Positions 58,391 through 61,460 of a DNA stretch of 64,000 nucleotides are shown here, one piece after another. The notes under the pieces are model-generated. The model was not told where the DNA came from, did not search any database, and worked only from the letters and a program-made list of their open reading frames with translations. A program made the position numbers and the translations under genes. Every line of letters starts with the position of its first letter. Within the stretch, counting starts at the first letter, position 1. Origin of the DNA: Pseudomonadaceae bacterium (GTDB lineage Bacteria; Pseudomonadota; Gammaproteobacteria; Pseudomonadales; Azotimanducaceae); NCBI GenBank assembly GCA_024743175.1, contig JANSXA010000010.1:62001-126000 (forward strand). Direction: 5' to 3'.

Positions 58391-59122
58391 ATGGGACACA
58401 TTGAATTTCAGCATGTCACGAAGCGTTTTGAGAATGGCTATGAAGCACTCAGCGACGTATCTGTGGAGTTTGCAGAAGGTTCCATGTGCTTTCTCACAGG
58501 ACACTCTGGTGCCGGCAAAAGCACTTTCTTAAAGCTCCTGCTGCGCGCGGAAATGCCGACTCGGGGCCGACTGCTGGTTAATGGGGTTGATATTGTTCAA
58601 CTCCCGGACAAGCGCCTGCCGCGCTACCGGCAGAACCTGGGTGTTGTGTTTCAGGACCATCATCTGCTTGCACAGCGCAGCGTATTTGAAAACGTGGCGC
58701 TGCCGTTGCGGGTAATCGGTATGCGTGAACGTGAGGTCGGGCGTCGCGTGCGAGCCGCGCTGACCCGGGTTGAACTGTTAGGCAAAGAGAATCTCTTCCC
58801 TCGGCATTTATCTACCGGCGAGCAGCAGCGGGTTGGCATTGCCCGCGCGGTGGTGACGCGGCCAAAAATTCTGTTGGCAGATGAGCCTACCGGGAACCTT
58901 GATCCGGATTTATCCACCCACATAATGGATTTGTTTGCACGTTTTAACCAGGTAGGCACAACAGTCATTATAGCCAGCCACGATGTGCCGCTGATCGAAA
59001 GCATGGGTTTGCGGATCCTGCATCTGCAGGCGGGGCGGGTTGTTGAAGATCTACCCGCAACGCGCAGCATTGAAGAAGTCACGGGCATGACACTGGAAGC
59101 ACCTCAGGAAACGAATTCGTGA
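58391..59122 (+). CDS. ftsE: Cell division ATP-binding protein FtsE
   Basis: FtsE is the ABC ATPase that with FtsX activates septal peptidoglycan hydrolases. The 243-residue product has Walker A GHSGAGKS at 37-44, a Q-loop VVFQDHHLL, the signature LSTGEQQRVGIARA and Walker B ILLADEPTGNLD. Usual length is ~222, so about 20 residues of C-terminal extension are present. Its stop overlaps the ftsX start (GTGA). Confidence 0.96.
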   Translation: MGHIEFQHVTKRFENGYEALSDVSVEFAEGSMCFLTGHSGAGKSTFLKLLLRAEMPTRGRLLVNGVDIVQLPDKRLPRYRQNLGVVFQDHHLLAQRSVFENVALPLRVIGMREREVGRRVRAALTRVELLGKENLFPRHLSTGEQQRVGIARAVVTRPKILLADEPTGNLDPDLSTHIMDLFARFNQVGTTVIIASHDVPLIESMGLRILHLQAGRVVEDLPATRSIEEVTGMTLEAPQETNS

Positions 59123-60075
59123 CCCGCGCAGCCAAAGATCCCTGGCGCGGCAGCGGGTGGCAACCTTTTGCCTGGTTCAGAGATCACGCGCGTATCAGCA
59201 GCGAGTCGATTAATTTTATCAGCACCCGCATTGGTACCAGTTTTCTGGTCTGGCTGGTGGTGGGCATCGCGCTGGCTCTGCCCGCTGGTTTATGGATTCT
59301 GCAGATAAATATGGAGGCCATGTCGCAGGGCTGGGAGGGTCGCCCTGGACTGAGTGTTTACTTTGACACGGATGCGAGTCAGGAAGACATTGATGTTGTT
59401 GCTCAGGCCCTTGAAGGCAATAAAGATATTGCCAGCGTAGCGCTGACAACGGCTGAGCAGGCGCTGACCCAGTTTAAAGAGTACAGTGGTCTCGGTGACG
59501 CCCTGGATCTGTTGGGAGAAAACCCGCTTCCAGCCTCACTTACCGCTCGCTTTGCAGACAAGATAGACCCGCTGGCACTGGACGATCTACTGGCCTCCCT
59601 GTCGCAGCTCGCTGGTGTGTCTGAGGTGGTGGTTGAAAAAACCTGGCTGGAGCGACTGAATGATCTTTCTGCGGTGATCAGCCGCATGGGGCTGGTGCTG
59701 GCGATTATGTTTGGCGTTGGTGCGGTGCTGGTCACAGCCTCCTCTGTGCGGCTGGCGATAGAATCTCGTCTGGATGAGTTGCGTGTGCTGAAAATGGTGG
59801 GTGCAACCCAGGGCCAGATTCGCCGACCGTTTCTATATTTTGGCGCGATCTATGGTTTTGGAGGCGGTGTCATCGCCTCTATGCTGATCGCCTTTACACT
59901 GGTGGTCATCGAGCCGCCGTTACAGTCCCTGCTCGGCAGTTATCGCCAGGAGCTGCAGTTGGCAGGCTTCAATATGCTGTTTTTGCTGCTAATCTTGACG
60001 ATCGGGTGTTTTTTAGGTGTGCTGGGTGCATTACTGGCTGTTCGACAGCGGCTCAAACACCTTGAACTCTTTTAA
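59119..60075 (+). CDS. ftsX: Cell division protein FtsX
   Basis: FtsX is the membrane partner of FtsE, linking ATP hydrolysis to periplasmic amidase activators. The 318-residue product has a cytoplasmic N-tail, a first membrane helix (about 36-60), a periplasmic ECD (LSVYFDTDASQEDIDVVAQAL...), then three helices near 190-215, 240-265 and 285-310 with the conserved RLAIESRLDELRVLKMVGATQGQIRRPF. The start is GTG, coupled to ftsE. Confidence 0.95.
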   Translation: MTRAAKDPWRGSGWQPFAWFRDHARISSESINFISTRIGTSFLVWLVVGIALALPAGLWILQINMEAMSQGWEGRPGLSVYFDTDASQEDIDVVAQALEGNKDIASVALTTAEQALTQFKEYSGLGDALDLLGENPLPASLTARFADKIDPLALDDLLASLSQLAGVSEVVVEKTWLERLNDLSAVISRMGLVLAIMFGVGAVLVTASSVRLAIESRLDELRVLKMVGATQGQIRRPFLYFGAIYGFGGGVIASMLIAFTLVVIEPPLQSLLGSYRQELQLAGFNMLFLLLILTIGCFLGVLGALLAVRQRLKHLELF

Positions 60076-60097
60076 ATTCAACCGTTTATCCTGCAGG

Positions 60098-60127
60098 TTG
60101 AACTATGTGGTGGAACTTTTTTACAAT
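60098..60127 (+). promoter_or_regulatory. rpoH: Sigma-70 promoter upstream of rpoH
   Basis: TTGAAC (60098-60103) and TACAAT (60122-60127) are spaced by 18 bases in the ftsX-rpoH gap. The predicted transcription start falls inside the inverted repeat that follows, so a repressor there would block initiation. Confidence 0.65.
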
Positions 60128-60153
60128 TAGCAGTGTCGAACTGAGAGTGCTAA
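60127..60153. promoter_or_regulatory. CIRCE-like operator (HrcA-type) at the rpoH promoter
   Basis: The left arm TTAGCAGTG (60127-60135) and right arm GAGTGCTAA (60145-60153) are separated by exactly 9 bases. The CIRCE consensus is TTAGCACTC-N9-GAGTGCTAA: the right arm is perfect, and the left arm differs at two of nine positions (16 of 18 bases match). It begins at the last base of the -10 box, 33 bases before the rpoH start codon. HrcA is the known CIRCE repressor; hrcA is not in this window. Confidence 0.75.
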
Positions 60154-60185
60154 ACTTATCGCATTAGTGTTACCGGAGGTATCAC

Positions 60186-61034
60186 ATGTCCACAAATATC
60201 ATGACTTTACCCAGCCTCGCGCCGGGCCGCGATATCGATGCGTATCTGCAGACGATCAGCCATTTCCCGGTGCTCAGCGCTGATCAGGAAAAAGAGCTCG
60301 CAGAACGCTTCTACTATCAGGAAGATCTTGAAGCTGCTCGCCAGCTGGTGATCAGCCATCTGCGTTTTGTGGCGCACATTGCCCGGTCGTATAAAGGTTA
60401 TGGACTGTCCCAGTCTGACCTGATTCAGGAAGGTAATGTGGGTTTGATGAAGGCGGTGAAGCGTTTTAACCCCGAAGTAGGCGTGCGTCTGGTGTCTTTT
60501 GCCGTGCATTGGATCAAAGCTGAGATGCACGAATTTATTCTGCGCAACTGGCGCATCGTGAAGGTAGCCACCACCAAGTCCCAGCGAAAACTGTTTTTTA
60601 ACCTGCGCTCAAACAAGAAGCGTCTGGCATGGCTGACCGAGTCGGAAAGTCAGGCCATTGCTGATGATCTTGGTGTGCCGGTGGCTGAAGTCACCCGCAT
60701 GGAAGGTCGCCTCTCAGCCAGCGATATGGCCTTTGACGCAGACGATAATGATGATGAACAAGGCACCGCGCCGGTTCATTTTCTGGCCTCCGCTGCCCAG
60801 GACCCGGCAGACATCGTTGCTGCTGCAGATCTGGAGATGGAGCAGAGTGAACGCTTAACAGAAGGCTTCGCAACCCTTGATGAGCGCAGCCGCGATATTG
60901 TGCAGAAGCGCTGGCTGACAGATAAGAAAGCCACTCTGCATGAACTTGCCGCTGAGTATGGCGTGTCTGCGGAACGTATTCGCCAGCTCGAGAAGAATGC
61001 GATGAAAAAACTCAAAAAAGCCATTGCTGCCTGA
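60186..61034 (+). CDS. rpoH: RNA polymerase heat-shock sigma factor RpoH (sigma-32)
   Basis: RpoH directs transcription of heat-shock genes. The 282-residue product has region 2 ([39 protein letters not shown]), the RpoH box QRKLFFNLR that marks sigma-32, and region 4 with [27 protein letters not shown] (recognition helix SAERIRQLE). GGAGGT precedes ATG 60186. It is controlled, by inference, from the promoter and CIRCE-like site upstream. Confidence 0.97.
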
Positions 61035-61082
61035 TCCAATCTGCAGGGGCTGGCTTTTGACAGCTGGTCAAATCCGCAAAAG

Positions 61083-61460
61083 ATGCAGAGCGCTAGATTC
61101 AGTCTGACTGCCGGAGCCCTTTTTATGGGCTCCGGTGTTGTTTTGGGTGCCTGGGGTGCCCACGGACTGGAAACATTTCTTGGTCACAGCAATACCAGCA
61201 GCTGGGAAACCGGCGTTCTCTACCAGCTTGTGCATGGACTGGCACTGCTGCTCGTGGGCATTCTGCAGGGGCAACAGTATTCACAGCGGCTACGCTGGGT
61301 CAGTGTTCTTCTAACTGCGGGTGTGTTGCTGTTCAGTGGCAGTCTTTATCTGTTAACCCTTGGCGGACCGGGATGGCTGGGCCCGATCACACCACTGGGC
61401 GGTGTCTGCCTCATCAGTGGCTGGTTGTTGATGGTTTTTCTCCTGGTGCGCAAGCCATGA
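61083..61460 (+). CDS. DUF423-family membrane protein
   Basis: The 125-residue product has four membrane helices. The N-terminal GALFMGSGVVLGAWGAHGLE matches the DUF423 signature (GA...LGAFGAHxL), and YQLVHGLALLLVGIL, FSGSLYLLTLGGPGWLGPITPLGG are the other conserved stretches. Function unknown. Its first ~20 codons contain a strong hairpin (61111-61135). The stop overlaps the trmB start (ATGA). Confidence 0.85.
   Translation: MQSARFSLTAGALFMGSGVVLGAWGAHGLETFLGHSNTSSWETGVLYQLVHGLALLLVGILQGQQYSQRLRWVSVLLTAGVLLFSGSLYLLTLGGPGWLGPITPLGGVCLISGWLLMVFLLVRKP
61111..61135 (+). terminator. Strong GC hairpin inside the start of the DUF423 gene (possible rpoH terminator/attenuator)
   Basis: CCGGAGCCC and GGGCTCCGG pair perfectly over 9 bases around a 7-base TTTTTAT loop. 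The following bases (TGTTGTTTTG) are T-rich but not a pure T run. It lies 77 bases after rpoH inside codons 10-18 of the next gene, so it could attenuate read-through from rpoH or act on translation. Confidence 0.45.

Follow-up and report, generated by a model that had tools for sequence, protein, structure and literature searches.

In the textbook model of heat-shock control in Escherichia coli, rpoH, the gene for sigma-32, is governed chiefly by translation and protein stability. Titration of the repressor HrcA by GroE has been described in Bacillus subtilis and in Helicobacter pylori (PMC6032397), and a link between HrcA and sigma-32 was proposed in 2004 for Geobacter sulfurreducens, where a perfect CIRCE was predicted at position −51 of rpoH and CIRCE was also placed at groESL; in the same account, no HrcA target but groESL is called constant across the deltaproteobacteria (PMC545781). 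Sigma-E is the other regulator that has been connected with this gene: it transcribes rpoH (fam) of Bordetella bronchiseptica in vitro (PMC3490749) and has been reported at promoter P3 of rpoH in Pseudomonas aeruginosa (PMC9866376). A report of a CIRCE lying over a sigma-E promoter of rpoH was not found in the literature searched; the study by Permina and Gelfand on the regulons of HrcA in beta-, gamma-, and epsilon-proteobacteria may already describe such sites. CIRCE at rpoH had been predicted and sigma-E at rpoH was known before, and the parts described here that may be new are the wide distribution of the former and the overlap of the two.

The window (the whole 64-kb stretch of DNA that was analysed) carries rpoH at 60186..61034 on the forward strand, identified by the equivalog model TIGR02392 (400.9 bits, cut-off 323.1) and by the Pfam domains for sigma-70 regions 1.2, 2, and 4. 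The gene stands in the order ftsY-ftsE-ftsX-rpoH, all in one orientation, with ftsX (59119..60075, forward strand; TIGR00439, 261 bits) as its upstream neighbour. Between ftsX and rpoH, 32 bases from the rpoH start codon, lies a CIRCE-like repeat, TTAGCAGTG-N9-GAGTGCTAA (60127..60153, forward strand), a predicted HrcA operator whose full sequence, by direct reading and by pattern search, is TTAGCAGTGTCGAACTGAGAGTGCTAA. Scored against the consensus TTAGCACTC-N9-GAGTGCTAA, with few mismatches and the exact spacer required, the repeat agrees at 16 of 18 arm positions and has the exact 9-base spacer: its right arm is perfect, both departures fall in the left arm (positions 7 and 9), and the two arms are complementary to each other at seven of nine positions. 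The CIRCE match with a 9-base spacer claimed in the preliminary description is thereby confirmed, and it is the only match with up to three mismatches in the 64 kb. Shuffled versions of the window contained 0.01 matches on average (1 of 100 shuffles had one), and a site of such quality is expected by chance, at equal base frequencies, about 0.1 times per 4.72 Mb or about 2e-6 times per 100 bp.

The genome as a whole (4.72 Mb in 18 contigs, 98% complete) was searched for the corresponding regulators. It encodes one HrcA, recognized by its C-terminal domain (PF01628, 199.8 bits) and its winged-helix domain (PF03444, 25.8 bits, cut-off 21), with an apparent grpE and then dnaK read by eye downstream of it, as well as an RpoE equivalog (TIGR02939, 303.3 bits, cut-off 236.15). 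Exactly two CIRCE sites with up to three mismatches occur in the 4.72 Mb, one at rpoH and a perfect one beginning 97 bp before groES; the same search found none at hrcA, grpE, or dnaK. Since no CIRCE was found at dnaK, HrcA would act on that gene only via sigma-32. A sigma-32-like sequence, CTTGAAA-N13-CCATAT, was seen by eye ahead of the groES CIRCE, suggesting that groESL is under HrcA and sigma-32 together. Sigma-32-like sequences were also seen by eye at groES in the genus, in place of a TTGAC that lies within 40 bases before CIRCE in 16 of 20 groES loci from across the class (L320-L339); the sigma factor of groESL may have switched between lineages.

Conservation of the rpoH repeat was assessed at several depths. 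The window's own genus is represented by 37 genomes in the sample of relatives, of which two had no rpoH match and one (G022) had an rpoH cut at its start, leaving 34 usable rpoH starts with the window included. All 34 loci have a CIRCE with up to three mismatches in front of rpoH: 21 sites are perfect, four are one off, seven two off, and two three off, so that the site in the window is among the weaker ones of a genus in which 25 of 34 sites have at most one mismatch. The expectations of the preliminary description for an hrcA gene, a groESL operator, and conservation in close relatives are thus borne out by a single intact hrcA, a perfect site at groES, and a repeat retained at every genus locus examined. 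Three of the 34 loci are identical in sequence to those of Pseudomonadales bacterium PL25a_bin.88, an uncultured gammaproteobacterium (ERR599006_bin.59), and the K189A clade isolate AG-896-K13, which is why the source organism is taken to be a gammaproteobacterium. Among the best 80 of 593 named rpoH loci, 21 have a CIRCE with up to three mismatches, including those of Halieaceae, Luminiphilus, Ketobacter, and Alcanivorax; within the same best 80, the rpoH loci of Pseudomonas, Halomonas, Marinobacter, and Endozoicomonas have none at this threshold. At one locus (L202, genome G064), a CIRCE-like repeat with one mismatch starts 32 bases upstream of a perfect rpoH CIRCE and directly before it, forming a tandem operator.

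The presence of the site was then compared with that of hrcA, scored separately from the stretches upstream of rpoH, in 125 genomes outside the window's genus (21 from the same order, 89 from across the class, and 15 from a phylum sample). The class sample comprised 96 genomes, no two of them from one family; in GTDB usage, Gammaproteobacteria includes the former betas. Left out before counting were the additional rpoH copies found in G039 and G083, which have no CIRCE, the genomes with no rpoH match (6 of 96 in the class sample and 2 of 58 relatives), and two of the 17 gammaproteobacterial genomes that the phylum sample newly contributed (G208 and G243), both lacking hrcA. A CIRCE stands at rpoH in 69 of 74 genomes with hrcA, compared with only 5 of 51 in which no hrcA was detected (Fisher p 1e-22, not corrected for shared ancestry). 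The exceptions are G144, G112, G078, G149, and G067, with hrcA and no rpoH CIRCE, and G052, G038, G129, G115, and G070, with an rpoH CIRCE and no detected hrcA; because G129 has CIRCE at both rpoH and groES, its hrcA may be absent from the assembly rather than from the genome. A reversed control pattern gave no match with up to one mismatch in the 96 genomes; it does match at three mismatches, making single three-mismatch sites weaker evidence, and three-mismatch CIRCE matches away from rpoH and groES were therefore set aside.

Partial sites were seen on both sides of this association. Genomes G239 and G235 belong to one genus; the former has hrcA and the rpoH CIRCE, and the latter gave no match for hrcA, its CIRCE being reduced to a broken remnant with a 10-base spacer, with GGAACTT and TCCAA kept. 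The left arm TTGGCACTC remains at rpoH in G117, where no hrcA was detected, and the right arm GAGTGCTAA alone remains in G144, where hrcA is present.

In other classes of the phylum, which were mostly Alphaproteobacteria as far as can be inferred, 44 of 75 genomes were examined, chosen as hrcA-bearing (43 of 44) and represented by their best rpoH match only. An rpoH CIRCE was found in eight of the 44 (L283, L288, L292, L293, and L300-L303), all from one family, of which ten members were examined; with the site confined to that family, hrcA and the rpoH CIRCE are not generally coupled in these classes. None of the eight sites has GAAC at the sigma-E place, so that rpoH may have come under HrcA on more than one occasion. 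In three (L293, L302, and L303), a TTGAC-like element stands in place of the sigma-E −35. The preliminary description had set HrcA on rpoH against the normal targets groESL and dnaK; the arrangement is not exceptional, given its occurrence in most hrcA-bearing genomes of the order and class, in eight of ten in the one other-class family, and, by prediction in 2004, in G. sulfurreducens (PMC545781). HrcA control of rpoH is strongly supported by these comparisons, and the arrangement is not peculiar to the source species.

The sigma-E consensus (ECF02) combines GGAACTT with TCTRA about 16 bases downstream, the spacing being somewhat tolerated. In the window, a −35 of this type, GGAACTT (60112..60118, forward strand), is followed by a candidate −10, TCGAA (60136..60140, forward strand), inside the operator spacer; the resulting GGAACTT-N17-TCGAA has a −10 weaker than TCTRA and a spacing of 17 instead of 16, and TCTAA, TCCAA, or TCATA stands at the matching place in some relatives. 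Searched on both strands, the 64 kb contain a single instance of GGAACTT-N15-18-TCNAA. Promoter elements were counted in 76 rpoH sites (64 from the class, 8 from the order, and 4 from the genus), sites with fewer than 60 bases upstream being dropped from the logo only. Aligned on CIRCE, the logo of the 64 class sites contains a single upstream signal, GGAAC-like letters spanning −16 to −12. The spacer tends to open with T, any base, and A, which spell TCTNA when joined to the two letters that close the left arm. Of the 76 rpoH sites, 43 have GAAC beginning at −15 of CIRCE and 54 have it beginning anywhere from −16 to −14, the latter placement being found in none of 39 groES sites. TCTNA is present in 31 of the 64 rpoH sites from the class; at groES the counts are 1 of 20 for class sites and 5 of 19 for genus sites. 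Judged from these alignments, the recurring signal is the sigma-E signature GGAACTT-N16-TCTRA, with its predicted −10 inside CIRCE. The rpoH gene of E. coli has GAACTT-N16-TCTGA from 120 bases before its start codon, and its 400 bp upstream contain no CIRCE, the best candidate having seven mismatches. A looser sigma-E score reached at least 10 of 12 in 48 of the 69 hrcA-bearing genomes with the site, where 17.1% of shuffles score as high as observed, and in 20 of 46 hrcA-lacking genomes; the latter count was discarded as weak, since shuffles equal it 47.5% of the time.

Within the genus, GAAC lies near the sigma-E place in 12 of 34 loci, including the window, and the 22 loci without it all have a perfect or one-off CIRCE. 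Thus, the operator is better conserved in the genus than the promoter type. A G at left-arm position 7 was observed in 10 of the 12 loci with a sigma-E −35 and in none of the 22 others (Fisher 5e-7, not tree-corrected; L113-L142 and L145-L148); possibly the left arm has yielded to the overlapping −10 in a trade-off between operator and promoter, or the loci share this letter by descent.

A further element lies between the repeat and the coding region. The near-palindrome GTGTTACCGGAGGTATCAC (60167..60185, forward strand) is conserved in the genus and could form a hairpin containing the Shine-Dalgarno sequence GGAGG (60175..60179). Its core, GTTAC-N5-GTA, occurs up to 63 bases after CIRCE in 33 of the 34 genus loci, and the element is present in a single copy in the genome at up to three mismatches. 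In nine genomes, including the K189A isolate, it stands beside CIRCE and the start codon comes about 60 to 190 bases further on. It is possibly a hairpin over the ribosome site or a second operator.

The most serious alternative concerns which promoter the operator covers. In the preliminary description, the repeat began at the last base of a promoter, TTGAAC-18-TACAAT (TTGAAC at 60098..60103, TACAAT at 60122..60127, forward strand). On this alternative, that sequence is a housekeeping sigma-70 promoter blocked by HrcA, with a start near 60134 and no role for sigma-E in the source species. The hexamers are indeed present, with 9 of 12 matches; moreover, the 22 genus loci lacking GAAC need promoters of some other kind, and the TTGAC ahead of CIRCE at most class groES loci speaks on the same side. 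However, the match is near the level of chance (one in 351 bp, with shuffles giving 0.5 on average, sd 0.9), and the window is itself among the dozen genus loci with a correctly placed GAAC. Nor is it conserved at the offsets in question (−29 to −24 and −5 to −1 of CIRCE) in the 64 class sites, and as a conserved element the sigma-70 promoter was rejected because the CIRCE-aligned logo is empty there. The hexamers are probably secondary or fortuitous, sole dependence on sigma-70 is considered unlikely, and the promoter beneath the operator is more likely of the sigma-E type than the one first described.

Other alternatives concern the repeat itself. It could serve as an mRNA hairpin, in stability or temperature sensing, instead of a DNA operator; it does lie upstream of a coding region and beside the conserved element predicted to fold over the Shine-Dalgarno sequence. 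Yet across the 76 sites the letters are kept rather than the pairing, departures in one arm being mirrored in the other at 3 positions and unmirrored at 47, a pattern that fits a DNA operator rather than an RNA stem, and in the window the arms pair incompletely. For want of compensating changes, a hairpin role was rejected. Furthermore, the presence of the site tracks hrcA, a search of 59900..61200 against Rfam gave no match at the gathering score (one match, far below it at 20.3 bits where 50 are needed, E 0.21, was attributed to chance), and either predicted transcription start would fall inside the repeat, in which case the whole stem would not be transcribed. Such a role is accordingly regarded as very improbable. 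A somewhat less remote reading is that the site is a relic, decaying in the source species and leaving HrcA in control of groESL only, as the two left-arm mismatches and the remnant sites in genomes without detected hrcA might indicate; against this, hrcA is intact in the genome, the site is kept throughout the genus, and the G at arm position 7 recurs at rpoH in 10 of 34 genus loci and also in a groES site (L109, in the other arm), so that decay is improbable. Chance resemblance, in favour of which there are the two mismatches and nothing else, is refuted by conservation at the same place in all genus loci examined and, given the expected frequency per 100 bp, can be considered negligible.

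With these alternatives weighed, it is concluded with good confidence that the repeat functions as an HrcA operator for rpoH, lying over what is most likely a sigma-E promoter. In unstressed cells, HrcA aided by free GroEL would sit on 60127..60153, an operator that spans the sigma-E −10 and the predicted start (about 60145 to 60150), and RNA polymerase would be blocked. Heat or misfolding would draw GroEL off and release HrcA, envelope stress would free sigma-E, and rpoH would be transcribed; sigma-32 would in turn act on groESL and dnaK, and fresh GroEL would restore HrcA, closing the loop. Computation shows the site along with its conservation, coupling to hrcA, and fixed distance to the sigma-E −35 in many relatives; we infer HrcA binding at rpoH, promoter use in the source species, the GroEL step, and the order of events. 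The earlier proposal that sigma-32 is an HrcA target joining the two classical circuits is supported in part, and its form as a simple cascade has to be revised: since HrcA sites are found at both groESL and rpoH, and groESL also has a sigma-32-like promoter, the arrangement would rather be a coherent feed-forward loop.

On balance, though only slightly, the data favour the hypothesis that Gammaproteobacteria ancestrally transcribed rpoH from a composite gate (sigma-E AND NOT HrcA) with its sigma-E −10 within CIRCE, which would fire fully only when envelope stress coincides with GroEL shortage, and that control in E. coli is what remained after loss of hrcA, with ghosts of the operator persisting in some hrcA-lacking lineages. 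A genuine composite promoter would mean that many Gammaproteobacteria with hrcA set sigma-32 transcriptionally, with GroEL supply sensed by a repressor and the envelope by a sigma factor, and that the scheme of E. coli is a derived state, perhaps arising by later loss. In the order and class sample, rpoH is a near-constant HrcA target (69 of 74), as opposed to the deltaproteobacteria, where groESL is described as the only constant one (PMC545781).

Among described systems, the Geobacter arrangement is close in that HrcA stands above sigma-32 and CIRCE is found at both rpoH and groESL (PMC545781). It differs in belonging to a deltaproteobacterium, in being itself a prediction, and in having CIRCE also at hrcA-grpE-dnaK-dnaJ, where the source genome has none; in addition, no mention of a sigma-E promoter was found in that account (PMC545781). 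HrcA/CIRCE control of the B. subtilis type is matched in the consensus, the 9-base spacer, the position of the operator at the promoter or start, and the expected GroE feedback (PMC6032397). However, the B. subtilis type controls groESL and dnaK, whereas in the source genome a sigma factor gene is targeted and CIRCE is missing from hrcA-grpE-dnaK. H. pylori, with HspR and HrcA, likewise places two heat-shock regulators on one promoter and has HrcA sites near or overlapping the −35 and −10 (PMC6032397). Both of its regulators are repressors, in contrast to the window, where a repressor is predicted to be combined with an alternative sigma factor and the gene they control itself encodes a sigma factor. 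Finally, the rpoH promoters of E. coli, P. aeruginosa (P3), and B. bronchiseptica (fam) are of the GGAACTT-N16-TCTRA type, like the candidate promoter of the window, but the E. coli and named Pseudomonas rpoH loci are without CIRCE, whereas the candidate −10 of the window lies inside a predicted HrcA operator.
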